Below the pieces are notes generated by a model that was given only the letters and a program-made list of their open reading frames with translations, searched no databases and was not told where the DNA came from. From Candidatus Aenigmatarchaeota archaeon (lineage in GTDB: Archaea > Aenigmatarchaeota > Aenigmatarchaeia > QMZS01), in contig JAFGCN010000001.1 of NCBI GenBank assembly GCA_016932615.1, positions 1 to 49,613 of the forward strand: a stretch of DNA of 49,613 nucleotides, read 5' to 3'. Both the position numbers and the translations under genes were made by a program. Shown piece by piece: positions 16,403 to 48,653 of the stretch (the stretch's first letter is position 1; each line of letters begins with the position of its first letter).

Positions 16403-17161
16403 ATGAAAAAACTTGCGATTGTTTCGGGAAAGGGAGGCATAGGAAAGACCACTTTAGCAATGAACTTGGCATACCTTTTGCACAACAAGTACAACGTTGA
16501 CTCGGCAGTTGTCGATTGCAATCTCACCACCCCGCATTTGAGTGTTTCCCTTGGCTACTACGACAACAACCGGACACTGAACAGGGTTCTTACAGGGCAC
16601 ACTCCGCTTGAGGAGGCAATTGTCGAGCACCCGGTTGGGCTCAAAGTCCTGCCGGCGTCAAACGACATAAAGGACCTTGAGGGGGTTGATATAAACCTTC
16701 TTCGCTCTGCGATACAAAATGCCAGCACTAACCTGATTCTGGACTCAGCACCCGGAATAGGGCGGGAGGGTCTTGCCTCTATTCAGGCAGCAGACGAGAT
16801 ACTTTTCGTCACCCACCCTCACAGGTCGGCCGTTGAAGACATACGAAGGTGCAGCAAGGTGGCAGAGATGCTGGACAAGAAAGTGCTGGGTGTTGTCGTA
16901 AACTGCAGGAAGGGCTTAAAGCATGAAATGACCCGGGAAGAAATCGAGGCAATTACGGAAACGCCCGTTCTTACGGAAATCCCCTATGACCTTGACATAG
17001 AAAAAAGCGTTTCTGCCCGGCTTCCTCTGGACGTTTACAAGCACACTTCAAAGGCAAACGAGTCATTCTACAAGATCTGCTCCGAGCTTACAGGCATACC
17101 TTACAGGAAGCCAAGGACTGTTTTTGGCCGGCTTTTCTGGAAGATTGGGCTTAGGAAGTAA
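16403..17161 (+). CDS. MinD/ParA-type ATPase (copy 1)
   Basis: 252 residues from ATG 16403. Deviant Walker A 'SGKGGIGKTT' (about 8-17), Walker A' 'VDCNLTTPHL', Walker B 'LILDSAPG' and the 'VVNCRKG' specificity region place it in the MinD subgroup of P-loop ATPases that cycle on membranes. The last residues 'TVFGRLFWKIGLRK' can form an amphipathic helix with basic and bulky hydrophobic faces, like the MinD membrane-targeting sequence. It is a close paralogue of the gene at 22768 and more distant from the one at 19530. Three secreted or anchored proteins follow in the same direction. No cell-division partner (MinC/MinE) is seen, so a role in positioning surface structures is a reasonable inference. 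Confidence 0.9.
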   Translation: MKKLAIVSGKGGIGKTTLAMNLAYLLHNKYNVDSAVVDCNLTTPHLSVSLGYYDNNRTLNRVLTGHTPLEEAIVEHPVGLKVLPASNDIKDLEGVDINLLRSAIQNASTNLILDSAPGIGREGLASIQAADEILFVTHPHRSAVEDIRRCSKVAEMLDKKVLGVVVNCRKGLKHEMTREEIEAITETPVLTEIPYDLDIEKSVSARLPLDVYKHTSKANESFYKICSELTGIPYRKPRTVFGRLFWKIGLRK

Positions 17162-17218
17162 TCCTGCCTTGATTTTTGGCTGCATTTTGGCTATCTTATT
17201 ATTTTTGCCTCGAAATTT

Positions 17219-18157
17219 ATGAGGTATTTAGCTACCCTTTCCCTCCTGGCGTTACTGGTTCTGTGTCCGGTAAGCGCTTTTTCGATAGGGACCGCGCCAG
17301 GAGTGCAGTATGTGGGAGAGTTTAGCCCCGGGGAAAATACTTACGTCAAGTTTTATCTTCTCACAAATGCCCAGGGTGATATTCTTACTACACTTTCTTA
17401 TATGAGGCCGCACCTGGAGCTTTATTACCCCGGGAAGTTGAGGTATATTTCAGCTTACGAGGCCTCCCAGCAGGACATTACGGGCTGGATTGCCTTCCAG
17501 CAAAACCCGGTTCTTGTTTCGCCCCGCAAAAGCATCATAGCAACTCTTCAGGGAGGCGAAGTCGTAAAGGCAAATGCGGAAGTCGTATTCAAGCTAAGCA
17601 TTCCCAAGAACGCGGAGCCGGGTTATCATGTGGGCTCTGTTTCTCTTGCCCCTAAGGTCGTGACAACCGGAGGGGGAACGGGAGTTTCGACGCTTGGCAT
17701 AACCCGCTATGTTTTCATTTTCAAGGTGCGAGGCCCTGCCGAGAGAAGCGGTGAGGTAAAGACAATGTACGGCGACAGGGTTGATGAAAGCCGGGCAAGG
17801 GTCGACGTTTTGTTCAAGAATACCGGAAAAGATACTCTTTCAGTCTGGGTCGAGTCGCTTAACATATATGATGATTACGGAAACACTGTTGCAAATCTTG
17901 AGTCCGGGCTTGTTTATGTGCCGCCTGGGGAAACAAAGATTCTGCCTGTATATTGGAGCAACAGGAACGCAAGCGGTGTTTACCAGGCAGAGGTCAAGAC
18001 GAACTACATTACTGGCTTTGCGACAAAAACCGTTTCAATTGAAATACCTATCCAGCCATCAATGCCTGTTCCAGAGAGCCCCAAGTTCCAGATTCCGTGG
18101 TGGCTGATACTGCTGGTAATACTTCTGATAATATTAATAATTTATTGGAAGTACTAA
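17219..18157 (+). CDS. Secreted, C-terminally anchored beta-sandwich protein
   Basis: 312 residues. It has a signal peptide (about 1-20, ending 'PVSAFS'). Two beta-rich domains follow: the first about 25-165, the second, Ig-like, about 185-275 with 'VLFKNTGKDTLSVWV'. A Pro-rich stretch and one very hydrophobic C-terminal helix 'WWLILLVILLIILIIYW' end almost at the terminus. The architecture resembles chaperone-like or WxL-interacting (DUF916-like) surface proteins; that similarity is suggestive only. It is followed after 1 nt by the pilin-like gene, so translation is probably coupled. Confidence 0.8.
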   Translation: MRYLATLSLLALLVLCPVSAFSIGTAPGVQYVGEFSPGENTYVKFYLLTNAQGDILTTLSYMRPHLELYYPGKLRYISAYEASQQDITGWIAFQQNPVLVSPRKSIIATLQGGEVVKANAEVVFKLSIPKNAEPGYHVGSVSLAPKVVTTGGGTGVSTLGITRYVFIFKVRGPAERSGEVKTMYGDRVDESRARVDVLFKNTGKDTLSVWVESLNIYDDYGNTVANLESGLVYVPPGETKILPVYWSNRNASGVYQAEVKTNYITGFATKTVSIEIPIQPSMPVPESPKFQIPWWLILLVILLIILIIYWKY

Positions 18158-18158
18158 T

Positions 18159-18638
18159 ATGAAAAGCACTAAAAGCAAGAGTAAGCTAGGCATAAACCCG
18201 GTTATTGGCGCGGCGGCCGTCGTTCTTTTGATAGCAGTCCTGGTTTTGGGCGCAAGCGCCAAAGTCCAGGAGACAACATATCCGCTCAAGGCAAACGTGA
18301 CTGAGCTTCGGCTTAACGACAGCAAAATCCTGATTGGCGTTTCGAATGACGCTGACCAGCTTGATTTTGGGGTTGTTTCGGTGAATATGAGCGTACAAAA
18401 GGAGCTTGACATAAGGAACTTCGAAAAGGTGCCTGCCAAGGTCATAATATCCAGGTCTGGAAATATTGCACCCATGGTTTCCGTTTCGGAAAGTTCGATT
18501 GTTCTTTCAGGAGGCGAGACGAGAAAAGTCTTCATCGAGTTCAACGCTACCGAGAAAGGAGAATATAGCGGAGTTTTGACTATGGTTGTCAGGACGCCCA
18601 AGTATGCGATTCTAGCCCCACTTTCACTATGGAAATAA
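18159..18638 (+). CDS. Type IV pilin-like secreted protein with beta domain
   Basis: 159 residues. The N-terminus is a short basic segment (KSTKSKSK), then 'LGINPVIGAAAVVLLIAVLVLG'-type sequence (residues about 10-31): Gly at the expected prepilin-peptidase site, followed by the 'xxPVIG' start and about 20 hydrophobic residues, as in archaeal type IV pilins. The rest (about 40-159) is a beta-sandwich with 'LDFGVVSVNMSVQKELDIRN' and 'SGGETRKVFIEF' strands, like bacterial/archaeal Ig-like surface modules. An ordinary signal anchor is the alternative. The 3' end overlaps the next gene by 10 nt, so the two are translationally coupled. Confidence 0.7.
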   Translation: MKSTKSKSKLGINPVIGAAAVVLLIAVLVLGASAKVQETTYPLKANVTELRLNDSKILIGVSNDADQLDFGVVSVNMSVQKELDIRNFEKVPAKVIISRSGNIAPMVSVSESSIVLSGGETRKVFIEFNATEKGEYSGVLTMVVRTPKYAILAPLSLWK

Positions 18639-19459
18639 AGCCCCTTGTTTTGTTTGTTTTTCTTGCATTTGCTTTTTCTGTTCCAGCCAGCGCAATGTCG
18701 GTGGATATCGAAATAATGGATGCCCTGAATGGAAGGAGCTCTTTTCTTGAATTTAACAACACGACTGCAGCATATTTCAGCTTTGACTGGGAAAACATTG
18801 GCTCTCTCGATTGCAATGCCCGGCTTAGGGTGGACATAACCGACCCGGAAGGCAGGGTGAATTCAGTGTGGAGCAGGGAAATTCCACTTGCTCCCGGTGA
18901 CAGCGGTCTTTTTGAGGCATATTACTTTCCGAAGGAGAGAGGAAGGTACCGGGCCGAAATCTACATGCAGTACTGTAACGAGTTTCTCAGGGTCTCAAGG
19001 TTTAATTTCACTTACTCGCCTGCAAACCAACTTCTTTCTTCAGGCGACCTGAAAATTTCCGCAAGTTCAGATGAGGATGAGGTCTTCTTTTCACTTGACC
19101 CGAAAATAGACCTGACGGGCGTGCGGATAATCCCCCTAAGCCATCCCAAGACCTGGATATTCGAGCCCGCAAAGGTAGGTGAGATTTCAGCGGGAACACA
19201 CAAGGAAGCGGTATTGGGCTATAAGCCAGCGGTATGGATGCCGCGAAATGTCACCTTTGCGGTGGTTTCCGATGAGGGCTACCGGGAGGTGAACGTCCAG
19301 CTTGAAAGGGGTAAAAACCACACATCAACCCTGATATTTTTGCTTGCTCTCGCTCTCATAATCTCCATTGCCTTTAACCTCTCCTTTTTTAAGCTTCCAA
19401 AAAGGCCCGACGGCAAGGAGAAGGAAAAAGAGGAAACCCCCAGGAAGGGCAAAAAATAA
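18629..19459 (+). CDS. Secreted, C-terminally anchored beta-rich protein
   Basis: 276 residues. It has a signal peptide (about 1-23, 'FVFLAFAFSVPASA'), then two predicted beta-sandwich domains (about 24-130 and 135-230). A single transmembrane helix (about 233-252) and a short Lys/Glu-rich cytoplasmic tail (about 253-276) follow. No family is recognised. Its start lies inside the end of the pilin-like gene. The topology (outside beta domains, one anchor, charged inner tail) matches the other surface proteins of the locus. The tail could be what a membrane-bound MinD-type ATPase contacts (inference). Confidence 0.78.
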   Translation: MEIKPLVLFVFLAFAFSVPASAMSVDIEIMDALNGRSSFLEFNNTTAAYFSFDWENIGSLDCNARLRVDITDPEGRVNSVWSREIPLAPGDSGLFEAYYFPKERGRYRAEIYMQYCNEFLRVSRFNFTYSPANQLLSSGDLKISASSDEDEVFFSLDPKIDLTGVRIIPLSHPKTWIFEPAKVGEISAGTHKEAVLGYKPAVWMPRNVTFAVVSDEGYREVNVQLERGKNHTSTLIFLLALALIISIAFNLSFFKLPKRPDGKEKEKEETPRKGKK

Positions 19460-19500
19460 CTGAAAATCTCAAAAACGCCAGGAAAACCAAAAATATTCAA

Positions 19501-19510
19501 TAAATATTAT
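19501..19510 (+). promoter_or_regulatory. TATA box of second MinD-type gene
   Basis: TAAATATTAT is centred about 25 nt before the ATG at 19530. This suggests a leaderless transcript and an internal promoter for the second half of the locus. Confidence 0.5.
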
Positions 19511-19529
19511 AATACCTCGGTATATAGTT

Positions 19530-20288
19530 ATGGTCTATGGTACGGGGACTAAGATTATAGGCGTTTCTTCTGGCAAGGGTGGGGTAGGAAAAACCACTTT
19601 TTCCATAAACCTCAGCGCAGCCCTGTACGAGATGGGATACCAGAATATTCTTGTCGATGGGGACATTTCAAACGCAAACCTGTCCGTTCAGCTTGGCCTG
19701 CAGCATAATACCATAACTGTCCAGGACTTGGTTACCGAAAAGCTAAACCCAATGCACGCGATAAGGATTCACCATTCCGGGCTTAGAATACTCCCTGCAG
19801 CCCTTTCCATTCAAAAGGCAAATGTCGAGATGCATGACCTTCGCACACGCCTGTCCCCACTCAACGAGACCTTTATCATGGATTTTCCGCCTGGTATTGC
19901 AAGAAATGTCGAGCAGCTTATGGAGCTTTGCGATGAGATAATTGTCCTCACCACACCGGAAGTCACATCCATAACAGACGCGGTAAAGACAGTAGAGCTT
20001 GCAAAGCAGCTTAGAAAGCCATTTTTAGGGATGGTGGTCAACAGGGTTTCCGGGGAGTGGTTTGAGCTTACTCCCGCCGAAATACAGTCGATGTCCGAGA
20101 GCCACATTCTTGGAACTATCGCTGAGGACAAGAAGGTGAAAAGGTCTAACTTTGAGTCCCTCCCATATGTATTCAGGTATCCTTATTCGAAAGCGGCAAT
20201 AGACACGCGGCTTATCGCCTGCCGGCTTTTAGGCAAGCCCTACTCCGGGCCCAAGTATAACTTCTTGAGGAACTTGCTTGAAAGATGA
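19530..20288 (+). CDS. MinD/ParA-type ATPase (copy 2)
   Basis: 252 residues. Deviant Walker A 'SGKGGVGKTT' (about 14-23), A' 'VDGDISNANLSVQLGL', Walker B 'FIMDFPPG' and 'MVVNRVSG' are all intact, closer to classical MinD/FlhG than copies 1 and 3. The C-terminal 'YNFLRNLLER' is a plausible short amphipathic membrane-targeting helix. The stop overlaps the start of the 828-residue surface protein by 4 nt (ATGA), so translation is coupled one-to-one with an anchored extracellular protein, an arrangement not expected for a cell-division MinD. The gene has its own TATA box. Confidence 0.9.
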   Translation: MVYGTGTKIIGVSSGKGGVGKTTFSINLSAALYEMGYQNILVDGDISNANLSVQLGLQHNTITVQDLVTEKLNPMHAIRIHHSGLRILPAALSIQKANVEMHDLRTRLSPLNETFIMDFPPGIARNVEQLMELCDEIIVLTTPEVTSITDAVKTVELAKQLRKPFLGMVVNRVSGEWFELTPAEIQSMSESHILGTIAEDKKVKRSNFESLPYVFRYPYSKAAIDTRLIACRLLGKPYSGPKYNFLRNLLER

Positions 20289-22771
20289 ATCGCAGATTGG
20301 TTTTGGCAGGGGCGTTTCTTTTGGTGATGGCGGCAGTGATTGTGCCAGCATTCGCTGCCGAGGATATAATTTCAGACCTCACAATTACAATTGACGGGCA
20401 GGTGGTTACAGACAGCGGGGTTTGGATAAGGGAATATTCCGGGCAAAGCACGTACGAAAAAAACAGCGGGCCTGTGCTGCATGCAGTTTCCACCTGTAGG
20501 AGTGCTAATGGCACTTCCGGGGACCTGGCGCTTACACTTTACCCGATTGGAAGCGCTTACCTTCGAAGGACATTTACGGGTGACGCAACAACAGACTTTA
20601 CCCTGAAAAACCTTTGGGGTTATGGTAGATATACGATTGAAGCCAGCTGCTCGGTTGGAAACCAGACTTCCGCAATCTCCAAGAGTTTCTCTGTACACAA
20701 GATGGAATTTTTCTTCCAGAACTCTGACACTATTGAGGCCGAAATCGGTTTTGAGGCAAAAGTGCCCCTTATTTATCGGCTCGATGGGAATATAATTGCC
20801 GATAAAAACAACATCACCATCCGTCTCAGAGACGCTTCACACACATACCTTAGCTCAGTGCCAGACTACCTTGAAAGCATTGGAGGGGACTACGTGGAAA
20901 TTTCTGTAGCCGTGCCTTATGACGTTCCTGAGGGGAAAAGGACGCTTGATGTGATAACTAATTACGAGGGCTATTCAGTAAACATAAGCAGAAGCATCGA
21001 GATACTTTCTCCGATAGATGTCGAGATTGAAACCGAGTCGGTTTCCTGCAGGGCGAACGAGTATTGCCCTTTTGAGATTTCTGTTCTTGTGACAACAAAC
21101 GGCCCTAAGTCGGTTTCGGAATACGCCACTGGAAATTTCCTGGTTGGAATTTACCGGGCAAGTGACGGGGCGCTTTCGGATTACCCGTCGATAACCAGGG
21201 TTGACTGCAACGAGAACACGAAGCGGTGCATTCTCAAGCTCATGACCGACGAAAAAGTCACTCCCGGAGACTACACACTCAAGGTTTCTGTAGTGGATAA
21301 CCAGCTTGGAAGCGCGCCAAAATTCCTGCCTCTATCATGCTCCTACTTTTTGCAGGGCACCATAAGAAATGCGGAAAACAGCGCGGTGAGGGCGAAGATG
21401 ACCTTCATAAACAAGGACACAAAACGGGTCGTTACAAAGGAGTTTTCCGGAGATTATGTAATTGAAATACTGAGGGGAACCTATGACATTTCGATGGACC
21501 TTCAGGGCGGAGCCCTTATCGCGGAGGTGACGAATGCAAGCTTTGAAAATGCGCTTCTTGAATCAACAAAGAACATAAATTTCGATTCCTTCGAGCAGGC
21601 AGACCTTCTTGCAGGAGTGCATACCGTAAGAGTGGTTGTCCTTGAGCTTGGATTTGACTTCGAGACAATGAACCTTAAGATTCCTTATAACAATGTCAAT
21701 GTTTACAATGAGGAGAACCTTGAGGTTTACCGTTGCCTGAACTGGAACTTCGGGACAAGAAAATGCAATGGAAACTGGACTGTGGTTGAGGGAACCGTCC
21801 TGAATTCAGTTGCTGATATTGTTGAGCTTGACACTGAACGGGCTTCAGCGCTTTTACTGGGCGAGAAAAAATTCCTTCACTTCAATACTGTGGGCTCTGC
21901 CACAAAGGAAACCGGGCTTGGCGGAGTGGTTCCCATTGAAGGCCAGATTCTGGACTCTGACGGAAAAGAGATTTCCGGCGTAAATATTACTCTGAAGGCA
22001 GATGGGTACCAGACAACTGTTGGGACTGTCAACGATGGCTCGTTTCTTGGCTATGTGACACTTCCCTACAAAGAAGGGCTTTTTGATGTCCAGGTTATTG
22101 CAGAAAAAAGCCCTTATGTTGGCTGCAGCGACAAGGTCGTGCTAAAGACTGTAAAAAAGGAAGGTCTTGCAATGGTTTTGCCTGAAGACCAGATTTCACT
22201 TGCCCTTGATGAGCCGAGAACTGTAGAGATATCGGTTGTAAATGACGGGCAGGTTGAGATTACAAACATTTACCTCCGGCTTGACGGAATTTCAACTAAA
22301 ACTTACGCGCTTGTGCCGGACAATATCAATCGGCTTTCCCCAGGCGAAACCAAGGTGCTTAAGCTTAACCTAAATATGAGTTCTGAGGAGTGTGGGGAAA
22401 AATGCCTCCAGTACACCTCGGTTGGCGTTGAGGCAAGAGGCCAGTCGGAAAGCGGGCAGGAGGTGAGCGTTTCAGGAACTTTCATAATAGAGCTTCAAAA
22501 GTCGCTTGGCATCGCCTCTCAGGAAAATTCCGGGCTTTCTGGCCTGTCGGGAATGTTCTCATTTCCGGCGGTTTCCAATACAATGCTCCTGAATGGTGTG
22601 ATAGTTTTGTGCATAGTGATTGTGGCGATACTTATAATAAAGAAGAAGAGGGGTTCGCCTTCCGGGGGAATAAGGGGTCCTTACCAGCAGCCGCTCGGTG
22701 GGGGCGCTCCAAGAACCAGCGTCGTATCCTCGATAAAAACAATAAGAAATGAAATCAAGAACAAAAAATGA
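20285..22771 (+). CDS. Large secreted protein with carboxypeptidase-regulatory-like and CARDB/NEW3-like domains, C-terminal anchor
   Basis: 828 residues. It has a signal peptide (about 1-25), then several predicted beta-sandwich domains (about 30-545). A carboxypeptidase-regulatory-like domain (about 549-609, 'GQILDSDGKEISGVNITLKA') and a NEW3/CARDB-type domain (about 630-740, 'VEISVVNDGQVEITNIYLRL') follow. One transmembrane helix (about 763-787) and a 40-residue Gly/Pro-rich, basic cytoplasmic tail end the protein. Both ends overlap MinD-type genes by 4 nt (ATGA), so three genes form a tightly coupled unit: ATPase, anchored surface protein, ATPase. It has fewer sequons than the giant proteins downstream. 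The likely role is the extracellular part of the assembly the ATPases organise (inference). Confidence 0.85.
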   Translation: MNRRLVLAGAFLLVMAAVIVPAFAAEDIISDLTITIDGQVVTDSGVWIREYSGQSTYEKNSGPVLHAVSTCRSANGTSGDLALTLYPIGSAYLRRTFTGDATTDFTLKNLWGYGRYTIEASCSVGNQTSAISKSFSVHKMEFFFQNSDTIEAEIGFEAKVPLIYRLDGNIIADKNNITIRLRDASHTYLSSVPDYLESIGGDYVEISVAVPYDVPEGKRTLDVITNYEGYSVNISRSIEILSPIDVEIETESVSCRANEYCPFEISVLVTTNGPKSVSEYATGNFLVGIYRASDGALSDYPSITRVDCNENTKRCILKLMTDEKVTPGDYTLKVSVVDNQLGSAPKFLPLSCSYFLQGTIRNAENSAVRAKMTFINKDTKRVVTKEFSGDYVIEILRGTYDISMDLQGGALIAEVTNASFENALLESTKNINFDSFEQADLLAGVHTVRVVVLELGFDFETMNLKIPYNNVNVYNEENLEVYRCLNWNFGTRKCNGNWTVVEGTVLNSVADIVELDTERASALLLGEKKFLHFNTVGSATKETGLGGVVPIEGQILDSDGKEISGVNITLKADGYQTTVGTVNDGSFLGYVTLPYKEGLFDVQVIAEKSPYVGCSDKVVLKTVKKEGLAMVLPEDQISLALDEPRTVEISVVNDGQVEITNIYLRLDGISTKTYALVPDNINRLSPGETKVLKLNLNMSSEECGEKCLQYTSVGVEARGQSESGQEVSVSGTFIIELQKSLGIASQENSGLSGLSGMFSFPAVSNTMLLNGVIVLCIVIVAILIIKKKRGSPSGGIRGPYQQPLGGGAPRTSVVSSIKTIRNEIKNKK

Positions 22772-23520
22772 GCAAGCTTGCAATTGTTTCCGGAAAAGGC
22801 GGCGTTGGAAAGACAACTCTTGCGCTTAATCTCGGCTACCTGCTTCACAACAAATTCAATCGCGATACCACCATAGTTGACTGTAATCTCACTACCCCTC
22901 ACCTTACAATTAATCTCGGCTCTTATTCGGGACCGGTCACTCTCAACCATGTCCTCAGGGGACAAGCAAAGTTAGGCGAGGCCATTGTTGAGCATCCTGT
23001 AGGAATAAAGCTCGTTCCAGCTTCACTAGACCTCAAAGAGCTTGATGGAGTGGACATCTCCGCCCTTGAAAGAGTCCTTAAGAGCTATGAGTCTAACCTG
23101 ATTCTGGATTCTGCGCCGGGTCTTGGGAGGGAAGGCGTTGCCTCGATTGCCGCTTCAGATGAAATTTTGTTTCTTACCCAGCCATACACGAGCGCTGTTG
23201 TTGACATATTCAGGACGCGAAAGGTCGCAGAAGTCCTGAACAAAAAAGTCCTTGGTGTGGTCGTAAACTCACGCCGCGGGATGAGGCATGAACTTACAAA
23301 CAACGAAATAGAAAAAATCTGTGAGGTTCCTGTCGTTGGAGAAATCCCGTTTGATATTGAAATCGAAAAAAGCCAGGCATCAAAGTTGCCTCTTGCCCTA
23401 TATAATCCTGCTGCCAGGGCAAACCATGCGTTCTATGAAGTCTCGTCCAACATTGCTGGCTACCCGATACAGCCGCCAAAAACCTTTTTGGAGCGGCTGT
23501 TTGAAAGAATAGGACTTTAG
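22768..23520 (+). CDS. MinD/ParA-type ATPase (copy 3)
   Basis: 250 residues. It is nearly co-linear with copy 1: 'SGKGGVGKTTLALNLGYLLH' against 'SGKGGIGKTTLAMNLAYLLH', the same A' motif 'VDCNLTTPHL', 'LILDSAPG' and 'GVVVNSRRGM'. Copies 1 and 3 thus form a recent pair within the locus. The C-terminal 'KTFLERLFERIGL' is a strong candidate for an amphipathic membrane-targeting helix, resembling the end of bacterial MinD. Translation is coupled to the 828-residue anchored protein by ATGA overlap. A GC-rich hairpin lies 28 nt after the stop. Confidence 0.9.
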   Translation: MSKLAIVSGKGGVGKTTLALNLGYLLHNKFNRDTTIVDCNLTTPHLTINLGSYSGPVTLNHVLRGQAKLGEAIVEHPVGIKLVPASLDLKELDGVDISALERVLKSYESNLILDSAPGLGREGVASIAASDEILFLTQPYTSAVVDIFRTRKVAEVLNKKVLGVVVNSRRGMRHELTNNEIEKICEVPVVGEIPFDIEIEKSQASKLPLALYNPAARANHAFYEVSSNIAGYPIQPPKTFLERLFERIGL

Positions 23521-23661: not shown

Positions 23662-23961
23662 ATGGAAGGGCTTCTCCTGATGGGACTCGAAATCGCATTT
23701 TTCTTTGGAGTGATTTTTTTTCTGGAGTACCGCAGGCATATTTCTGCTGCTGCCGGAGGAGGGGTTTTTGTTTCCGCCCAGCCCAGGGTGTACCTTACGA
23801 ACAGAAATATCGACAAGGCCTCGGTCCTTTTTGCAGAGGAGTTCCGGAAGATTCTTGACGCCTCTGAGAAGGGGTATGTTTCTTTCGGAACGCAGGACCT
23901 TTACACCACGATAAAAAAGCTGGAATCTAATTTCGAAGATGCAAGACGAACCGGGAATTAG
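23662..23961 (+). CDS. Small membrane protein, unknown function
   Basis: 99 residues from ATG 23662 (a TTG at 23653 adds three). One N-terminal transmembrane helix (about 3-22, 'LMGLEIAFFFGVIFFLEY') precedes a soluble, mostly helical domain with 'VYLTNRNIDKASVLFAEEF' and 'TTIKKLESNF'. No family is recognised. It overlaps the next gene, a HExxH membrane protein, by 23 nt, so the two are probably made together. A TATA-like TTATATA near 23600 lies upstream. Confidence 0.65.
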   Translation: MEGLLLMGLEIAFFFGVIFFLEYRRHISAAAGGGVFVSAQPRVYLTNRNIDKASVLFAEEFRKILDASEKGYVSFGTQDLYTTIKKLESNFEDARRTGN

Positions 23962-24451
23962 CTCTCCTGTCTTTTTTGCGCTTCTTCTGTTTCTTGCAGT
24001 CTTTTTAATAATTTCTCCTTTCGTTCATGAAATGGGTCATATTGCGGCAATAAGGCATTCCGGATGCGACTATACAATTCACCGCTACCAGCTTTCCCTT
24101 CTGGGCGGGCTTGAGGCATCAACAGAGATAAAGTGCCCTCTTCCGCTGGAAGTTTACCCCCTTATACTTGTTTCCGGGTCTCTTTCCACGTTTATATTGG
24201 GGAACTTTCTCCTTCTTTGCTTTTTTCTTTTTTTGAGAGTCCGCGGAAAAATGTGCCTTAAGATTTTTTTCCTGGCTCAGGGCTTTATTCTGCACAGCAT
24301 GGTCTACTTTTTTGAGAGGGGAGAATTCGACCTTTTTCTTCTTCTGGAAGGGCAGGGTTATTCGACAGGCACCCTTCCGGTCGTTGGAACTGTGCTGATA
24401 GCCATGTACCTTTCCCTTGCGTACTTTTCCATAAAGAAGTATGTTGCCTGA
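23939..24451 (+). CDS. M50-like (site-2 protease-like) HExxH membrane protein, copy 1
   Basis: 170 residues with about four hydrophobic spans. The first (about 11-29) leads directly into 'ISPFVHEMGHIAAIRHSG', an HExxH zinc site (H30, E31, H34) in the position it has in site-2-protease/M50 enzymes. The usual third ligand motif (NPDG-like) is not evident, so activity is uncertain. A related protein with 'ISPVIHESAHILALEFSG' is encoded on the opposite strand at 45767-46231, at the far end of the giant surface-protein cluster. Intramembrane processing of surface proteins or their anchors is a plausible role (inference). Confidence 0.78.
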   Translation: MQDEPGISSPVFFALLLFLAVFLIISPFVHEMGHIAAIRHSGCDYTIHRYQLSLLGGLEASTEIKCPLPLEVYPLILVSGSLSTFILGNFLLLCFFLFLRVRGKMCLKIFFLAQGFILHSMVYFFERGEFDLFLLLEGQGYSTGTLPVVGTVLIAMYLSLAYFSIKKYVA

Positions 24452-24589: not shown

Positions 24590-24630
24590 TTATGCGTGCA
24601 GAGTTGAGAGTATCCGCCGTATTGCTTTTG
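24590..24630 (+). repeat. 41-nt exact direct repeat, copy A
   Basis: From two bases before the ATG through codon 13, the sequence is identical to 30126-30166. It encodes the first 13 residues of the signal peptide (MRAELRVSAVLLL). Identity ends abruptly on both sides. Confidence 0.95.
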
Positions 24631-27600
24631 ATTGGCTTATCGGCACTGTTATTTCAGATGGGATTTGGAATTTCACATGGCGAACTTCCTGAAACTGCTC
24701 AGAATCTGGTTGTAATGACGACAATAGGGCATGATGAAAATTTTGTTGTCGGCTCAAGCATAGATGTTCTTTGCTTTGGGGAAAGGATTGGGATAGATGA
24801 CTCCGAGGGCCTGGCGGTTGCCACAGGGCCAAGCAAAATACAGTTTACTCCAACAGAATCAGGAAGCTATACCGTCTTTTGCGGTAAGGAAAGCCGGACT
24901 TTTTTTGTATTAGGGCTGGAGGGTTCGGAAGAGAAGGCAGAATCGGTTTCTGTCATTTCAAAAGACTCTAGTGTGGAGCCGAAAAGTGCGCCTGAAGTTT
25001 TGTCTCAGGAAACTTCCGAAACAAGTATGGGCTTAGAAAACTCTAAAAAGGTATTTTCCCAGGAAATCCTTTCAGCTCAGGACTTGCCTGCAGGCGCCTC
25101 TGAAGTGGCTAGCCGCACACCTTTTGCGCAAGACAATGGAAGCATAGTGCGCTTTAGCAGCAAACTTAAGGATATAGGCATAAATGTCACTTTGAAGTAT
25201 TCCGGGCAGGCTCCTGAGATTGAGGTCAGCAAATGGCAGGGTGAGGGTAGGGCAGTCCTAAGGGTTGGCTCAGAGCTTAGCGCCAAGGTGCACAAAAACC
25301 TTTCCGGCACAAGTATGTTTGAGTTCAATTCTTCTGGCCTTGTAAACCAGTTCTATGCAGTGGACGAGGGAGAGGGTACATTCAAGTGGAATATGGTGCT
25401 GGACAAGAAGCCTGCGCAGGACAACTGGTCTTATGAAGTCATCCTCGAAGGCATTGAGTGCTACTACCAGCAGCCTTTGGTTCAGGAAATAAACTGCACT
25501 CTGGCTGGCTGCGCTGCCTGCAATGAAACTGACTGCTGGGGAGAATCTGGAGAAATTCTAATCCACCGCCCTGAAGATGTTGTGGGGACTTATGCCTGCT
25601 ACGGAAGCCAGAAAGGAGACTATAGCGCCATTGGCGGAAAGAATTATGCAACTGGAAAAGCCTTTGACATAAAAAGACCGCTATTCATAGATGCAAATAA
25701 CAAGACTTATCTTGGCACAGTAAGCTTCTTGGAAAGCACTCTCACTGTAACTGGTGACCGTGACTGGCTTGAAAGCGCAGCTTACCCTGTAGTAGTTGAC
25801 CCTACTTTTGGATACACTACTGCCGGCGGCTCTTACACAACAGTTGGCACGAATGCTTTCTATGGGCTTATCGCAACACCGCCTGCAAACCTTGCCGTGG
25901 ATTACCTGAGGTTTTATGGGCGTAACGCGGCCAGCATTAAGGGAGTGATAACTGCAGACTTGGGCACTTACGCAATAGTGCCTAATGGGGTAAGCAGCAC
26001 AAACACCAGCACCAACACAATAATCTGGTATAACCTGTACTATTCCTCGAAGCCCCTTCTTTCAAGCGGAAACCATTATCTAATTGGGATCATTCCAAGC
26101 GCAAATGAAAGGTTTTATTATGATACCGGTATCCAGACAAACTCCTCATATGACACTGCAAACAGCTATGCCACTCCACAGGACCTTGGTGCAGTCACGA
26201 CTTCGACAAACCTCTATTCCATTTACGCAACATATACTTTGTATATCTCATCACTCAGGATAAACACGCCTGCAAATGACAGTTTCACGAATCAGACTAA
26301 TCCTTCGGTTAACTTCACAGTCCAGGGCGGCTCGCTGAATTACAACTGCACCTGGCAGCTGAATGGAACAAGGAAAGGCTACAATGGCTCGGTATCCAAC
26401 AATACTGCAACGCTGATGCTGAACTCAACCGCGCTGTCTGAAGGCCCTTATGCAGGAAACGTGACCTGCCAGAATAGCACAGTTGTGATGTCCGGGCTTT
26501 ACAACTTTACCTTGGACAGCATAATCCCTCAGGTTTCCATATCTTCGCCGCAAAACAGCACATACACAAACCTGACAGAACTGGACTTCATTTACGAGGT
26601 TTCTGAAAGCAACATTAACCTTACAAACGTCTCAATATACAACTCGACGGGCTCGATTGTGAATTCCACCACAAACTCCTCGACAGGGACTGTCCACTCA
26701 TACCTCGCAGTTTACAAGGATGGAGTCTACACTTTTAACGTGACTGGCTATGACAAGGCGGGCAACATTAACCAGTCAAGGGGAAACTTCACAAGGGACA
26801 CTTCTACCCCCCAGGTTTCAATAATATCCCCCATTAACAGCACCTGGACCAACCAAACCCTGCTTGATTTCTCTTATTTGGTTTCAGACGAGAATCTGAA
26901 CCTCACAAACCTTTCAGTCTATAACTCAACAGGCCACATTGTAAACTCCACGGCAAACTCAAGCACCGGGACGGCGCACTCCTGTCTGTCTGTCTACGCC
27001 GACGGCTACTATGTCTGGAATGCGACGACCTGCGACAAGGCAGGAAACTGCAACCAGTCAAGGGGAAACTTCACGAGGGACGCATTGGCTCCAGGCATAG
27101 CCCCCGCATATCCGGCAGACAATACCTACACAAATGACACTCAGATATGGGTGGTGGCAGCAATAACTGAAGGGAACCTGAACACGACAAACCTGTCAAT
27201 TTATAACTCGACAGGGGCACTTGTAAATTCGACGGCAAATATGAGCACTGGCGAAGTAAACTTCTATGCTTCATTCTACGCTGATGACTGGTATAATCTA
27301 ACTCTTATTTCCTACGACTATGCTTACAATGTTTATTCAAAGTCAATACAAAATGTCACTCTTGACCGGGAAATCCCTCAGGTTTCAATAATCTCCCCCG
27401 AAACAAACTCAAGTGTTACCAGCAGGCAGGTGGACATAACCCTGAGCGTCACGGAAACCAACATAAACCTCACAAACTGCACGATAGTCAGCGCGGCCGG
27501 AGAGGCCCTGAACAGCACGCTAAACACAAGCACCGGAACAGTGCACTGCTACCTGACTCTTTACCAGGATGCCAATGTAAACATAACCGTGACAACTTAC

Positions 27601-30021
27601 GACAAGGCAGGAAACATAAACTCGACACTCAAATCAAACATTACTGTAGATGAGGCAAAGCCGCAATACTCAAATGTGCAGCAGTCCCCAACAGGGAACC
27701 CGGATTATGGCCTTGAAGTCCAGTGCAACGCGACCTGGACGGATAATGTTGGGCTTTCTTTAGTTTATTTACGCTCAAACTTCTCTGGCTCCTGGCAGGA
27801 CTATGAGCCTTTATCCAACGGGGATGAATATTACTACACAATCCCCATAAGCGAGCTTACCGGCCTTGAGGAAGTTGGCTGGTACTTCTGGGCCAACGAC
27901 ACTTCAAACAACATCAACAATACTATGCCAATCCAGGCATTCACAGTCCAGAAGGCAACACCCGAATTGTCACTTTACCTTAACGGAACTGAGGGGGACA
28001 GAAACTACAGTAGAAACGAGTATGCAAACCTGACTGCGGCGCTTAGCGTTTCTGGAGAAATTGTTGAATTATGGGCAAATTTCACTGGAGGAGCAGCTTC
28101 TCTTTTGGACCTAGGCCCAAGCCCGCTTCAGAACATAACGTATTTGGATTATACGCCGGGCTATTATCAAGTAAAAGCAAACTTCTCGGGGAACGAGAAT
28201 TACACCGCTAGCGATAGTGAACACCTTTTGGGAATTTTCCCGGAGCCCCCCACAATAAACCTGCAGCAGCCAATCAACCGTTCCGGAGACACAGACGGAA
28301 CTGTTGTCTTCTATTACAATGTCTCAAGCCCGGTGGCGGTTTCAAGCTGCAAGCTCATCATAAATGGTTCGGTAAATCAGACAAATAGTTCCATAAATGT
28401 TGGAGAGACGCAAAACTTTACTGTTAATGGGCTGGAGGTCGGAAAGTACAATTGGAGCATAAACTGCACCAATTCCTGGGGGATGAAGAATAACTCAGAA
28501 ACGAGGGAGTTTAGCATTATAGTTATGAGCTCTTTTGGTGGGCTTACAACAGACATTTCAGGACAGGATGTCTCTGACCTAGCATTGTTTACTCTTGAAA
28601 GGGAGGGTTATGGAAAGATTGTTTTCAACGAGACAGTTGACCTGAGCGGAGGGTCAGACCTGGAGAGCAATGTCTCCATCGGATTGGGATATATTTTTGT
28701 AAATTCCTCGGGCGAACCAAGGATTAACAAGTCTGCAACCCTCTCGTTATATGGCTTGTCTTACCTCTTTCCACCAGTTGTACTGTCTGGGGGAGAGCTT
28801 TGCAGCGGCTGCGTCCCTGAGTCCTACACTTCAAACACCTTTGTTTTCAATGTCTCACACTTCACGAATTATTCTGCCGGCGCCAACTCCAACCTGACAA
28901 TATTCGACTCTACAGACCCTGAAGGCGGAGAGCATACAGTTTTTGCCGGGGATCAGGCGATTTTTTATGCCGGATATACAAATGCCACTACGGGCGAGCC
29001 GATAGTGGGCGGTGAGGCCTACTGCGAAATCAGGTTTTCGGACTTGGTAAAGAACATGACCTACAACTCTACATCAATGCTTTACGAGTATAACCGAAGC
29101 TTTGAAGTTTCGGGAAACTACCCTTGGAATATCACCTGCAACGGAAGTTCGCTTGGCTTTGAAGCGCTAAACTCTACGGACGCTGTTTCAATTGGATCGC
29201 CTTATCTGGAGGTTTACCTGATGATTCCCCCATCAGTGGAAGGTCAAGGAGATGCGACTGAGGATGGGGGGTACCTTGTCGGTCAAAACCGCACTTTTGT
29301 CATAAAGGCAAATGTCACCTGCCGGGCGGGGGACTGTGGGATTGTTACGGGATTTGTGCGCTATAACCACTCCAGCGAAAGCCCGGACGCAAACCTCTCA
29401 ACCTTCCCGGACACGCCATTCTATGTGGTAAACTCAACTTCCGGCAGCGCACAGAACCCAGTGTCCTGCGGAATGCTTAATGAAGGTGATTCCTGCACAC
29501 TGAACTGGACAATAAATGCTACCGGAAACCTCAACTCGCTCTGGAAGATTGATTCTGGCTTCAACTCGACAAATTCAATAAACCATACCAGCTCAGCGAC
29601 CATAAGAATAGTAAAGGTCATACTGCTTTCCCTTTCCTTTACGGAAGTTGACTTTGGCGTCGTAAACCCTGCAACCTCTGGCGACCAGAACCCAAGCCCC
29701 AACAACGGAAACCAGAAAGTAATGGTCCACGTGAACTCAAATGATGTCGAAAATCTCTGGATAAAGGGGACAAACCTTACTCCGGAAAAGATTTCGGGTT
29801 ATGGAAATGTTACTTACTCCATTGGAGTTGGAAATATCACCTGGAATACTGAAGCAGAATACTCCAGTTCCAAAAAACTCTCCTCTGAGTACCAGAATAT
29901 TATGTCAAACCTTAAGTCTGGCGAAAACCAGAGCATGTACTTTTGGATAACTGCCCCTCGGGGGCTTGAGGCGCAAAAGTATTCCGGAAAGCTCTACATT
30001 CTTGCAAACGCTACAAGTTAG
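24592..30021 (+). CDS. Giant secreted surface protein 1 (1809 residues)
   Basis: It has a signal peptide (about 1-28), then an N-terminal domain shared with giant protein 2 (about 36-105, containing 'FVVGSSIDVLC' and 'GPSKIQF'). A Ser/Glu-rich linker follows (about 108-180). A segment 'YPVVVDPTFGYT' (about 398-409) introduces a beta domain. Residues about 643-1019 hold four to five tandem Ig-like repeats of about 95 residues with 'YNSTG' and 'YDKAGN' motifs. Further Ig-like modules follow that are also found in giant protein 2 ('CNATWTDNV', 'KATPELSLYLNGT'). The last 270 residues are a conserved C-terminal domain ending 'ANATS'. There is no C-terminal transmembrane helix or basic tail. Sequons are extremely dense, so heavy N-glycosylation is likely. 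Probably an adhesin, stalk or filament protein (inference). Confidence 0.88.
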   Translation: MRAELRVSAVLLLIGLSALLFQMGFGISHGELPETAQNLVVMTTIGHDENFVVGSSIDVLCFGERIGIDDSEGLAVATGPSKIQFTPTESGSYTVFCGKESRTFFVLGLEGSEEKAESVSVISKDSSVEPKSAPEVLSQETSETSMGLENSKKVFSQEILSAQDLPAGASEVASRTPFAQDNGSIVRFSSKLKDIGINVTLKYSGQAPEIEVSKWQGEGRAVLRVGSELSAKVHKNLSGTSMFEFNSSGLVNQFYAVDEGEGTFKWNMVLDKKPAQDNWSYEVILEGIECYYQQPLVQEINCTLAGCAACNETDCWGESGEILIHRPEDVVGTYACYGSQKGDYSAIGGKNYATGKAFDIKRPLFIDANNKTYLGTVSFLESTLTVTGDRDWLESAAYPVVVDPTFGYTTAGGSYTTVGTNAFYGLIATPPANLAVDYLRFYGRNAASIKGVITADLGTYAIVPNGVSSTNTSTNTIIWYNLYYSSKPLLSSGNHYLIGIIPSANERFYYDTGIQTNSSYDTANSYATPQDLGAVTTSTNLYSIYATYTLYISSLRINTPANDSFTNQTNPSVNFTVQGGSLNYNCTWQLNGTRKGYNGSVSNNTATLMLNSTALSEGPYAGNVTCQNSTVVMSGLYNFTLDSIIPQVSISSPQNSTYTNLTELDFIYEVSESNINLTNVSIYNSTGSIVNSTTNSSTGTVHSYLAVYKDGVYTFNVTGYDKAGNINQSRGNFTRDTSTPQVSIISPINSTWTNQTLLDFSYLVSDENLNLTNLSVYNSTGHIVNSTANSSTGTAHSCLSVYADGYYVWNATTCDKAGNCNQSRGNFTRDALAPGIAPAYPADNTYTNDTQIWVVAAITEGNLNTTNLSIYNSTGALVNSTANMSTGEVNFYASFYADDWYNLTLISYDYAYNVYSKSIQNVTLDREIPQVSIISPETNSSVTSRQVDITLSVTETNINLTNCTIVSAAGEALNSTLNTSTGTVHCYLTLYQDANVNITVTTYDKAGNINSTLKSNITVDEAKPQYSNVQQSPTGNPDYGLEVQCNATWTDNVGLSLVYLRSNFSGSWQDYEPLSNGDEYYYTIPISELTGLEEVGWYFWANDTSNNINNTMPIQAFTVQKATPELSLYLNGTEGDRNYSRNEYANLTAALSVSGEIVELWANFTGGAASLLDLGPSPLQNITYLDYTPGYYQVKANFSGNENYTASDSEHLLGIFPEPPTINLQQPINRSGDTDGTVVFYYNVSSPVAVSSCKLIINGSVNQTNSSINVGETQNFTVNGLEVGKYNWSINCTNSWGMKNNSETREFSIIVMSSFGGLTTDISGQDVSDLALFTLEREGYGKIVFNETVDLSGGSDLESNVSIGLGYIFVNSSGEPRINKSATLSLYGLSYLFPPVVLSGGELCSGCVPESYTSNTFVFNVSHFTNYSAGANSNLTIFDSTDPEGGEHTVFAGDQAIFYAGYTNATTGEPIVGGEAYCEIRFSDLVKNMTYNSTSMLYEYNRSFEVSGNYPWNITCNGSSLGFEALNSTDAVSIGSPYLEVYLMIPPSVEGQGDATEDGGYLVGQNRTFVIKANVTCRAGDCGIVTGFVRYNHSSESPDANLSTFPDTPFYVVNSTSGSAQNPVSCGMLNEGDSCTLNWTINATGNLNSLWKIDSGFNSTNSINHTSSATIRIVKVILLSLSFTEVDFGVVNPATSGDQNPSPNNGNQKVMVHVNSNDVENLWIKGTNLTPEKISGYGNVTYSIGVGNITWNTEAEYSSSKKLSSEYQNIMSNLKSGENQSMYFWITAPRGLEAQKYSGKLYILANATS

Positions 30022-30125: not shown

Positions 30126-30166
30126 TTATGCGTGCAGAGTTGAGAGTATCCGCCGTATTGCTTTTG
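30126..30166 (+). repeat. 41-nt exact direct repeat, copy B
   Basis: Identical to 24590-24630, starting two bases before the ATG of giant gene 2 and covering its first 13 codons. Confidence 0.95.
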
Positions 30167-33100
30167 GCTGTTTTATCCATATCCATTCTTCAGTTTAGCT
30201 CACTAGTAGTGCATAGCGAAACCAGCCCAGGTGGCAAGGCGCTTGTTATAATGACGACCCTGGGGCATGATGCTAATTTTGTTGTTGGTTCAAGCATAGA
30301 CATACTATGCATGGGGCAGCTCATAGGGCTGAACGATTCGGAGGGGGTGGGTGTCGATGCAGGCCCAAGTAAGATACAATTTGTTCCGCAGGAACCTGGA
30401 ACCTATACAGCCGTGTGCGGAAGCGAAAGCCAGACCTTTTATGTAAGGGGGCTTGGGGAAGGAGTGGAAACTTCCCGGCTAGAGGAAAGCCCCTTGTCAG
30501 TAGTTGACACAGCTATGGTGGATGCCCCCTCAGATGTGGAGCAGCAGGTTTCTGAGAGCCAAACGTCTTTGGTAAATACCTCTGCGGATGATTCCCTTAA
30601 GCTCAGTTCCTTTTCCATACTGGAGGCCCCTTCAACGCTCTCTCCTACAAACGTTCAAAAAAATACTCTCTCTCTTCGCTCTTCCTCAGGTCAGGTCCTG
30701 GACGCAAACGGGACTCCAAGGAATTTTACCGAGGTATTTTCCCTGAAGTGGGCTGACGGCGCATACAACCTGTCCTGGCTTAACCGGTCAGTTGCAATAG
30801 AGGTTTTCTTCTTCTATAAGGGCCAAAGGCACAATTATTCTCAGGCCAGAGCTATGTTTCCCGGGCTTAGCGTAGCAGGCGTAATAATCAATAATACCGA
30901 GGGCTATAAGTACTCCCTAAACATAACGGGCATTTCACCCAATCTTTCTGAGGGGCTTGAGTATGTGGGACTTGAAGTAATCGGTGCCGATAGATTAGCC
31001 CTTCCGATGAAGCTTGGCGAAGACAAGGCGTCAATCATAATTGGTGAAAATCTGCAGTTTGGCTTTTTGGACCTTGCTCAAAACCACACACTCGTTTTTT
31101 CAGGAAACTCGACTCTTCTCATAGGAAATGTATCAAACCAGTCGGGGCTGTGGCTTGACCCCACAATCCAGCTCCAGGCGGCAGACACGCAAAACCTGAG
31201 AGATACTTATGTTTACTCTTATTCTCCAAGTTCGAACTATGGCAGCAGCACAGGGCTTATGCTAAGGGACAGGTCTACGCGTAGGGGTAGGATTTACCTG
31301 ATGTTCAATATCGATTCGGTCCCGGTGAATGTTTCCCTGACCGATGCAAGATTTTGCATGTATCTTTACAACAATGGCAATACAGCAACTGGCTCCATAT
31401 ACCATGTGACTGATCATTCCTGGGATGGCTTGACAGAGTCGAACATGAACTGGACAAACCAGGTATGCGGCGTTAACTTTGATGATTCCGCTGATTGCAA
31501 CCTTACTGCTGAGGATTCTGAGGCTACAACCTCTACAGGCTGGAAGTGCTGGAATGTTACAAAAATGGCTGGCGCTGAATACGCAAATGGAGGCCAGAAC
31601 TTGTCGATGGTTATCGTTTCTCCCGAAACATCTGGCTCAAACACTGAAGATATGTTCTGCTCTAAAGAATCCTCCTCTGGAAACCCCACCGGATGCAGCG
31701 CAGCAAACCGGCCTTACCTGAATATAACTTATGCTGATTCAGTGCCTCCGGAATATTCTGGCCTTCTCCAGTTCCCTTCCGAAAACTCCACCTATGGCCA
31801 GCCGGTAGAATGCAACGCCACCTGGACAGATAATGTTGCTATGGGGACAGTTTACTTTGAGTCGAATTACACAGGTTCCTGGCATAATTACACGCCTTCT
31901 GTTTCGGGGGCAATATACAACTACACGATTCCGGTGTCTGAGCTTCCCGCCGGAAGGACGGTTTACTGGAGATACTGGGCAAATGATACTTTTGGCAACA
32001 CGAATGATACAATGCCTTACCAGAATTTTACTGTTCAGAAGGCAACCTCAACAATAACGCTTTACCTGAATGGAACTGATGGAGATAGAAGCTACTCCGA
32101 GAATTCGAACGCCAACTTTACGGCAGAACTCAGCGTTTCGGGAAAAGTGGTTGAAATCTGGGCGAACTTCACTGGCTCTCTTACGCCATGGCAGTCAGGC
32201 ACAAGCCCGCTTCAGAACATCACGAACCTCACCTACAGCATGGGAAGTTACCTTGTGAAGGCAAACTTCAGCGGGGATGAGAATTACACCTCAACAGAAA
32301 CTTCACATGTAGTCACAATCACGCTTGACCCGACGCCTCCGGTTATTTCAGAGGTTTCTCCGGCCAACCTTACCTTTGGGCTTGGAAGTTATATTACTGT
32401 AAGGGCGAACGTCACTGACAATGGAGTAGTGGACAAGGTAATAATTAACCTGACGCCACCCAGTGGTCCTTCAGAGATTTATGAGATGGTTAACAGTACT
32501 CCCGACATTTATGAGTATTCCTTCTGGGCGTGGGAAAATGGGGATTACTATTACACAATCACCGCGAATGACACTTACGGGAACATTCGCCTCTATGACC
32601 CTTACATATACATATATTCGAATGCGACGCTTGGGATTTCATCTGGAATGGCAGCATATACTCCTGGCGAAGACGTGATTCTTGCCAGCCCTTCAGTCTG
32701 GCCTTCAGCAAACCTGGAGATGGGAACGGTTCAAAAGAAAGGCATCCTGAATGACCCGGTATGGGTGCAGCTCACATATGATAATTTCGAGTCCGGGTTT
32801 GGCTCATACACTGACGGAGGGGCTGACTGTGAGCTTTACACCGGAGGGACTTACTCTCACCAGGGGAGTAATTCGGTAGATATCCAGGACAACACGGGGG
32901 ACGCTGCATCATTCTACCACACAAACAACTACGGTCTGGATGCTTCCGGGTACACGGCGGCAAAGGTATCTTTCTGGTATTATGCCACGGGCTTTTCTGC
33001 AGGAGAGGACTTCTGGCTTAGGTACTCTAATGACAGCGGCTCGACCTGGACCACTGTCGCCAGCTATGTGGCAGGAACGAACTTTTCAACCGGCGCGTTT

Positions 33101-45795: not shown

Positions 45796-46231
45796 CTACT
45801 CTGTTTAGCTCTAAAAGGCAAAATCCTCCAAGAAAGAGCCCGAGTATTATGGATAGGGATTCAAGCCCGAAAAAGGACAAAATTGTCGAGAGGTCGCTTC
45901 CAGAAAACATTGCCAGAGTCGGGTTGAGGAGTAATCCCACTCCGGAAATCCTCGACACGGGCGATTCTTTTTTCCTCCCTACCAGGAGCAGAAAAATCCC
46001 TGCTAAAATGCTCGTAAATATGCCAATGCCTACAAAAATTATCGTTTCTGCCATTCCCGCTGATGAAAGCATCCTTATTGTGCCGTAGGTATTTGGGTAT
46101 ATCTCAAGGTCCGTAATATAGGGCGTGCCTGAAAATTCAAGCGCCAGAATGTGGGCCGATTCATGAATCACAGGGGATATAACCAGGCATGTCGCCAGGA
46201 GGCATACCATAAGCAAAGGCAATCTTCTCAT
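45767..46231 (-). CDS. M50-like (site-2 protease-like) HExxH membrane protein, copy 2
   Basis: 154 residues with about four hydrophobic spans. The first span leads into 'VISPVIHESAHILALEFSG' (H23, E24, H27), the same layout as in the 23939 gene. 'LLLNPTLAMFSGSD' (about 100-113) is a possible counterpart of the NPDG-type third metal-ligand region. It is convergent with the surface-protein cluster, and its 3' end overlaps the last surface gene by 29 nt. A TATA-like TTAAATAGT lies about 25 nt upstream of its ATG. It is probably a zinc metalloprotease-like protein of the membrane; the substrate is unknown. Confidence 0.78.
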   Translation of the reverse strand: MRRLPLLMVCLLATCLVISPVIHESAHILALEFSGTPYITDLEIYPNTYGTIRMLSSAGMAETIIFVGIGIFTSILAGIFLLLVGRKKESPVSRISGVGLLLNPTLAMFSGSDLSTILSFFGLESLSIILGLFLGGFCLLELNRVATSLLSEAP

Positions 46232-47653: not shown

Positions 47654-47692
47654 AATATATCATTTTAATATAGAAACTAGGGAAACTATTTT

Positions 47693-48646: not shown

Positions 48647-48653
48647 AATATTC

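Follow-up and report, generated by a model that had tools for sequence, protein, structure and literature searches.

A conserved cassette of secreted Ig-like proteins and MinD-type ATPases in Aenigmatarchaeota and a second DPANN phylum

The gene cluster and its surroundings

The stretch of DNA analyzed here, called the window below, spans 49,613 nucleotides and belongs to a Candidatus Aenigmatarchaeota genome of 1.26 Mb (97% complete, 29 contigs). Seven genes on its forward strand follow the order MinD-A-B-C-MinD-E-MinD, and both the genes and this order agree with the initial annotation of the window. The cluster is headed by MinD1 (16403-17161), a MinD-type ATPase with the Walker A sequence SGKGGIGKT, a DCN switch I in which Asp40 is replaced by Asn, and a C-terminal amphipathic helix. 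It is followed by protein A (17219-18157; 312 aa), which has a signal peptide, two Ig-like domains, a C-terminal transmembrane (TM) helix, and a predicted fold like that of WxLIP (DUF916-DUF3324), by protein B (18159-18638; 159 aa), which has an N-terminal membrane anchor and one extracellular ASH/HYDIN-type Ig domain, and by protein C (18629-19459; 276 aa), with a signal peptide, an Ig-like ectodomain and, in the window copy, a C-terminal TM helix. MinD2 (19530-20288), the MinD coupled to E, has a DGD switch I that retains the catalytic Asp, and ends in an amphipathic helix, FLRNLLER. Protein E (20285-22771; 828 aa) comprises a signal peptide, an ectodomain with Ig, carboxypeptidase-regulatory and NEW3-like domains, one TM helix, and a cytosolic tail. 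MinD3 (22768-23520) is again an Asp40-to-Asn type, overlaps E by 4 nt and ends in the amphipathic helix FLERLFERIGL.

Both 4-nt ATGA junctions are real. At the first (20285-20288), the start ATG of E overlaps the stop codon of MinD2, and the second (22768-22771) joins E to MinD3; B and C overlap by 10 nt. Lone 4-nt gene overlaps are common in prokaryotes, and the feature above chance is the recurrence of the 4-nt MinD/E overlap across families, not any single overlap. The core of the window cluster, A-B-C-MinD-E (17219-22771), is a conserved cassette. The view that three MinDs are woven into one operon held for MinD2 and, more loosely, for MinD3, and failed for MinD1, since MinD1 ends 57 nt before the start of A and its type is found elsewhere in a glycogen-synthase/GH57 locus.

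As had been noted from the window itself, no partner for division or for an archaellum lies nearby: the two FtsZ genes and the type IV pilus ATPases of this genome are on other contigs. No PilB/TadA ATPase or PilC platform was recognized in the window, and the T2SSE matches of the same genome likewise lie on other contigs, so a type IV or Tad pilus platform was ruled out for the cluster, which has neither ATPase nor platform. No ParB-like partner was found among the annotated window genes. Two small multi-TM, M50-like membrane metalloproteases with the HExxH motifs VHEMGH and IHESAH are encoded at 23939-24451 (forward strand) and 45767-46231 (reverse strand), respectively, and a protein similar to them (L081_3) occurs near another cassette.

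Conservation of the cassette and its MinD ATPases

The family was searched with E only, and the neighbourhoods obtained were scored for MinD. With the E profile, about 37 strong matches were obtained in 156 Aenigmatarchaeota genomes. Relatives of E were also present in the public genomes Candidatus Aenigmarchaeota/Aenigmatarchaeota LH_S4, LH_S7, and CSMAG_2581, and a weaker match was found in Nanohalarchaeota B49_G9, whose phylum, shared with genome G156, is referred to here as the second phylum. A same-strand MinD directly adjoined E at 32 of the 38 loci found via E alone (counting E genes whose upstream neighbour falls on the same contig), and these loci represent 14 GTDB families. The MinD was upstream of E at 28 loci, with a 4-nt overlap in 15 of them, and downstream only at 4; MinDs flanked E on both sides at three. 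Because each relative genome has only about 2-6 such MinD matches, chance adjacency of MinD and E is estimated at about 1%.

The neighbourhoods of E showed a recurring order of A (300-330 aa, with a signal peptide and a TM helix at the C-terminus), B (150-210 aa, with a TM helix at the N-terminus), C (220-290 aa), MinD, and E, and A-B-C stood in that order at 52 of 59 A-containing loci from Aenigmatarchaeota and the second DPANN phylum. One locus (L066) is an exact repeat of the window, with A-B-C, MinD, E, and MinD with the 4-nt overlap, and the MinD-E-MinD arrangement occurs there as well as in L073 and L129. The genome of the window also contains a second, diverged cassette (L009; contig C24, G000:C24:8000-23423) with the order giant-A'-B'-C'-MinD-E. 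Cassettes of this type are found in L013, L014, and L015, where MinD lies upstream of E with a 4-nt overlap. Single-sequence comparison of A', B', and C' from these four loci with A, B, and C of the window detected no homology; by profile, A' matched the A family with a probability of 98.8. In the L013-L015 cassettes, MinD is additionally preceded by a membrane-anchored protein resembling transglutaminases, of which the L013 copy matches Pfam Transglut_core.

In the second phylum, a strong match to the A profile (E < 1e-40) was present in 22 of 34 genomes. There, A-B-C-E occurs with one to four tandem genes of a further family, F, mostly divergent from A, and MinD is located between C and E in L104-L106 and L116. 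In one lineage of this phylum (L112, L114, L115, L117, and L119-L121), A-B-C-E lacks a MinD at the locus; elsewhere in these genomes, the best MinDs found belong to the Asp-to-Asn types instead of the E-coupled one. A universal presence of MinD beside E is thus ruled out. In L124-L128, from near-complete genomes of about 1 Mb with acidic proteomes, F and A-B-C-E are accompanied by an opposite-strand MinD, directly beside E in four of the five and two genes before E in the other. Outside Aenigmatarchaeota, strong A matches were restricted to a limited set of families among 392 archaeal relatives sampled. A genome that is 73% complete (G005) keeps three MinDs, and A, B, C, and E were not found in it. 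Its MinDs, one MinD2-type and two Asp-to-Asn, are adjacent to each other beside glycogen synthase/GH57 (L016; G005:C15:6278-8719), so a MinD triplet can stand as a unit by itself.

The linkage of MinD with anchored beta-sandwich proteins, which the initial annotation had predicted for relatives of this genome, is therefore conserved across two phyla. Loss of the gene order in relatives and scattering of the MinDs on the tree had been set in advance as outcomes that would speak against it; the order is kept, and the E-linked MinDs form one tree group. Our results indicate that A-B-C-(MinD)-E is inherited as one unit in two DPANN phyla.

The best family of all three window ATPases is the archaeal MinD family TIGR01969 (E 3e-49 to 3e-53), and it remains the best by far even though the scores of 167, 177, and 181 bits are below the curated cut-off of 201.75. 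All three, and nearly all homologues, contain the deviant Walker A motif KGGxGKT. MinD1 and MinD3 are 60% identical and mutual nearest relatives, and MinD2 is about 30% identical to either. In a tree of 74 MinDs, those located before E cluster together across both phyla, and the 38 E-coupled MinDs required 2 label changes compared with a shuffled mean of 26 when uncertain long branches were removed; the E-coupled clade has modest support (SH-aLRT 85). Relatives from the MinD1/MinD3 clade (L016, L021, and L026) adjoin glycogen synthase and a GH57 gene, which are also the neighbours of window MinD1. The three window MinDs are thus not equivalent: MinD2 belongs to the E-coupled clade and MinD1/MinD3 are a paralogue pair of the other clade, so that the window combines one conserved E-partner with a lineage-specific pair.

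The two groups also differ in switch I at the position equivalent to E. coli MinD Asp40. The Asp is retained in 30 of 33 MinDs located before E, whereas Asn is found in 6 of 8 located after E and in most others. Replacement of this residue by Ala in MinD (D40A), and likewise in Soj, gives hydrolysis-deficient, ATP-trapped dimers. The conserved Asp/Asn difference between MinDs on either side of E poses a pointed biochemical question on MinD partners with and without catalytic activity. Nearly all E-coupled MinDs end in an amphipathic helix, for example PPKFLSIKRFLGRFKK, with a hydrophobic moment of 0.45-0.87 for most, and this helix is predicted from sequence to target the protein to the membrane.

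In most genomes, E is alone among the cassette proteins in having a long cytosolic tail (median 54 aa), while A extends about 4 residues past its TM helix and C about 20. Charged inner tails had been suggested to mark the anchored proteins as MinD cargo, and a long, conserved tail of this kind is present in E, and not in A and C with their short ends. In the window, the tail of 41 aa (22646-22768) contains the conserved helix motif SSIKTIRNEIKNKK, a candidate MinD-binding site. A pattern of about hxxI[KR]xE[IV] was present in 48% of E tails; the figure was 3% for shuffled tails and 5% for other C-termini. Since this pattern was picked after inspecting the tails, a matrix was trained on tails from Aenigmatarchaeota and then tested on the second phylum, where E tails had a mean best score of 7.9 bits against 0.14 +/- 0.74 bits for shuffles. 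The motif appears to be the best candidate for a site at which MinD may bind. The E tails of L124-L128 have no such motif, though MinD is close to E; these tails are acidic, with a C2H2-like finger at their end. This zinc finger-like C-terminus (e.g., CDVCGESFDTESGMKLHKQAFH) was also observed in L048 and L084, and is possibly an alternative or extra cytosolic contact. Residues ~482-498 of E (window 21728-21778) form a conserved Y-x-C-x-x-W-N-F-x-x-R-x-C motif, and the region around it also matches giant proteins phylum-wide.

Proteins predicted on the outside of the membrane

In the AlphaFold model of A (AF2; pLDDT 86.7), two beta-sandwich domains are followed by a C-terminal helix. Foldseek matched the model best to Enterococcus faecium WxLIP bound to WxL (9i25; E 3e-10, TM 0.57 to target). 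WxLIP structures took ranks 1, 4, and 7 (9i1y at 4 and 7) with TMq of 0.43-0.47, the highest among the 50 matches listed, in which non-WxLIP proteins reached at most about 0.3; Ig folds, however, resemble many proteins. The modelled arrangement of two Ig-like domains and a C-terminal TM helix is that of WxLIP. At the profile level, Pfam DUF3324 (WxLIP_HBD) matched weakly in 2 of 21 A members (best E 0.0013), DUF916 matched in none of the 21, and the signature NQIDKxxxYFDLK is missing from the A alignment. Similarly, the Pfam WxL domain had no match in F or in the C-termini of the giant proteins described below. Membership of the WxL system by sequence was thus unsupported by Pfam profiles, and the comparison is kept solely in the sense that the cassette may work in a similar way. 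Profiles of A, C, E, and F compared with the sequences of solved structures gave nothing useful. For B, called pilin-like in the initial annotation, a pilin-like N-terminus (G-x-x-P-[VIL]) occurs in 1 of 57 homologues, the window copy alone; B was rejected as a type IV pilin, as its family lacks this N-terminus and its domain is ASH/HYDIN Ig-like.

In Gram-positive bacteria, WxL clusters encode small WxL, large WxL, and anchored WxLIP (DUF916-DUF3324-TM) proteins together, the prediction being that a disordered hairpin of WxLIP completes the WxL sandwich (PMC10599100). The cassette resembles these clusters in having an anchored two-Ig protein of equal predicted fold and size near secreted proteins of two kinds, small beta-sandwich proteins and long ones with a common C-terminal domain. 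It differs from them in that WxL and DUF916 profile matches and the NQIDK signature are missing, in the addition of B, C, E, and MinD, and in its occurrence in archaea, which have no peptidoglycan.

F is a multi-copy family neighbouring the cassette; in the genome of the window, two tandem F genes are located on contig C29, not on the contig of the cassette. The model of F (pLDDT 88.9) has a signal peptide followed by a conserved but unpaired N-terminal strand: residues ~25-52 are unpaired, of low confidence and conserved, and most of the remainder has a pLDDT of about 90 or more. The best match among solved structures was the TasA fibre (E 1e-3, prob 0.94), a likeness that is treated as a lead because the TM-scores of 0.24/0.30 are weak. 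FimG, CfaB, and Pyrodictium cannulae, all of which we take to be strand-exchange assemblies, were also among the top 50. By sequence, F matched none of the solved filaments. Judging from the model, F looks like a TasA-like donor-strand filament subunit. Like the subunits of TasA fibres, archaeal threads, and archaeal bundling pili, F is a predicted signal-peptide beta-sandwich with a free, conserved N-terminal strand. Unlike them, it sits with a dedicated A-B-C-E-MinD cassette, which is undescribed for those systems, and its filament is a prediction. The assembly pathway and machinery of the archaeal threads (Saci_0406) are stated to be unknown (PMC9715654).

Downstream of the cluster, two giant secreted proteins are encoded on the forward strand. 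Giant 1 (24592-30021; 1809 aa) has 105 N-x-S/T sequons, and giant 2 (30128-42469) has about 4110 aa when read from the ATG after the listed TTG start; it has the start MRAELRVSAVLLL in common with giant 1. Their C-terminal domains (29569-30018 and 42017-42466, respectively), of about 130 residues, belong to one family, which was found in 13 other proteins, many of them adjoining E or MinD, in L064, L067, L076, L077, L081, and the second phylum. This common domain ties the giant adhesin-like proteins to the cassette context, as had been suspected from their position. Profile comparison of the domain with F was not significant, and homology between them is not claimed. At the left edge of the window (2-3043, forward strand), there is a fragment of another sequon-rich secreted protein (6.1 sequons/100 aa) with an E-like domain and a C-terminal TM helix. 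Giant secreted adhesin-like proteins are also known as SPEAREs in nanohaloarchaea, which are host-dependent DPANN archaea (PMC6642349). Most SPEARE proteins have a TM anchor and nuclease domains in the cytosol (PMC6642349), whereas the giants of the window have a C-terminal domain without a TM helix and form part of a cassette on the scale of an operon.

A probable surface apparatus and the proposed role of its MinD

The cassette is almost certainly a conserved surface apparatus, and MinD2 probably acts as a physical partner of E. We propose that the function of this apparatus is to capture secreted beta-sandwich proteins at the external side of the membrane, keep hold of them, and assemble them there, with MinD as its cytosolic organizer. 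A, together with the Ig proteins B and C, would serve as a WxLIP- or chaperone-like holder that completes a beta-sandwich left open in the C-terminal domain of the giants, in F, or in both; for such holding of secreted beta-domains, the case is evenly balanced. F might then polymerize by donor-strand exchange, or the giants might remain tethered as adhesins. On the cytosolic side, ATP-bound MinD2 dimers could be held on the membrane by their C-terminal amphipathic helix and bind the tail of E, whereby the apparatus would be clustered or placed, and the tail might act on the ATPase in the manner of MinE/ParB-type peptides. MinD3 and MinD1, with Asn in place of Asp40, could be slow or non-hydrolysing partners that stabilize the patch. 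There are even chances that the role of MinD is spatial placement, a role suggested by its family. The reading as a whole, in which a dedicated MinD acts on E to cluster or position a WxL-like apparatus for surface-protein or fibre assembly, is about as likely as not. The MinD-less cassettes, the motif-less tails near MinD, and the cassette-free MinDs of G005 are its main weaknesses.

MinD-type ATPases dedicated to a surface structure have precedents in TadZ/CpaE (Tad pili), FlhG/FleN (flagella), and haloarchaeal MinD2/MinD4. Archaeal MinDs are described as affecting motility and cell shape (PMC11588486). Unlike the appendages positioned by MinD/ParA proteins, the cassette has no pilus or archaellum ATPase or platform genes, and the MinD partner, E, crosses the membrane once and has a large ectodomain of Ig-like type.

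The main rival to positioning is that MinD is an energizing or regulatory ATPase, which switches assembly or export via the E tail with no spatial positioning. The MinD-E linkage and the tail motif fit this equally well, ParA/MinD relatives do act as regulators or biosynthesis partners, and BcsQ, FleN, and BY-kinases are among the family matches. However, the amphipathic C-termini and the clear match to MinD, rather than to FleN, BcsQ, or BY-kinase, favour membrane patterning. An energizing or regulatory role without positioning seems rather unlikely, and the two modes are not exclusive. Within the window, MinD1 and MinD3 could also be redundant paralogues kept by chance, with MinD2 alone mattering for the apparatus. 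This is quite possible, if short of an even chance, given that the two are each other's nearest relatives and that other members of their clade have a different gene context; on the other hand, the Asn is conserved, and Asn-type MinDs came to lie directly after E more than once, in L064, L066, L067, L076, L077, and the window, which fall into different groups of the tree.

A function of the MinDs in cell division or chromosome partition, with no tie to the surface genes beyond a common operon, is improbable. They do belong to the archaeal MinD family, and MinD1-type genes are also found by the glycogen-synthase/GH57 locus, away from A-B-C-E, but the adjacency to E in 14 families and the second phylum, the co-inheritance on the tree, the location of both FtsZ genes on other contigs, and a cassette free of ParB-like genes argue against it. 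Even less credible is a function as Get3/ArsA- or Mrp-like targeting or iron-sulphur proteins for membrane-protein insertion: the P-loop fold is related and there are weak family matches to ArsA/Get3 and Mrp/NUBPL, but MinD is the best family by many bits, the C-termini are MinD-like amphipathic helices, and A, C, and E, each with a signal peptide at the N-terminus, are not tail-anchored substrates.

The proposed apparatus, clustered or positioned by MinD, can be extended to DPANN fibre assembly, in which WxLIP-like Ig proteins would act as donor-strand chaperones for TasA-like and giant subunits, and a pair of Asp and Asn MinDs would pattern the sites via the E tail. This extension is speculative and on balance doubtful. 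If it were true, archaeal donor-strand filaments would gain an assembly machine, and one member of a MinD pair would be non-hydrolysing by nature.

Host-associated DPANN archaea rely on surface contact, and how their surfaces are built is largely unknown. The tiny archaea that bear the cassette are probably host-associated. In Aenigmatarchaeota and the second phylum, the cassette offers a testable machine: A-B-C-E as its envelope core, F as candidate fibre subunits, the adhesin-like giants as clients, and a MinD dedicated to it. If the reading is correct, WxLIP-like surface architecture reaches archaea, by fold, beyond Gram-positive bacteria, and archaeal MinDs, little understood in function except in haloarchaea, gain a membrane partner with a candidate binding motif. 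In the literature consulted, mostly open-access papers, we found no description of the cassette or of MinD in Aenigmarchaeota, and the cassette looks like an undescribed way of building a cell surface.

Genes at the right end of the window may be part of the surface programme of the cassette. On the reverse strand, 46295-49529 codes for a DUF58 protein (48654-49529), a vWA/BatA-like protein (47693-48709), and a 452-aa protein without assigned function. A Pfam-confirmed MoxR-DUF58-vWA set adjoins the cassette in L127, and look-alike genes are present in L124 and L126.
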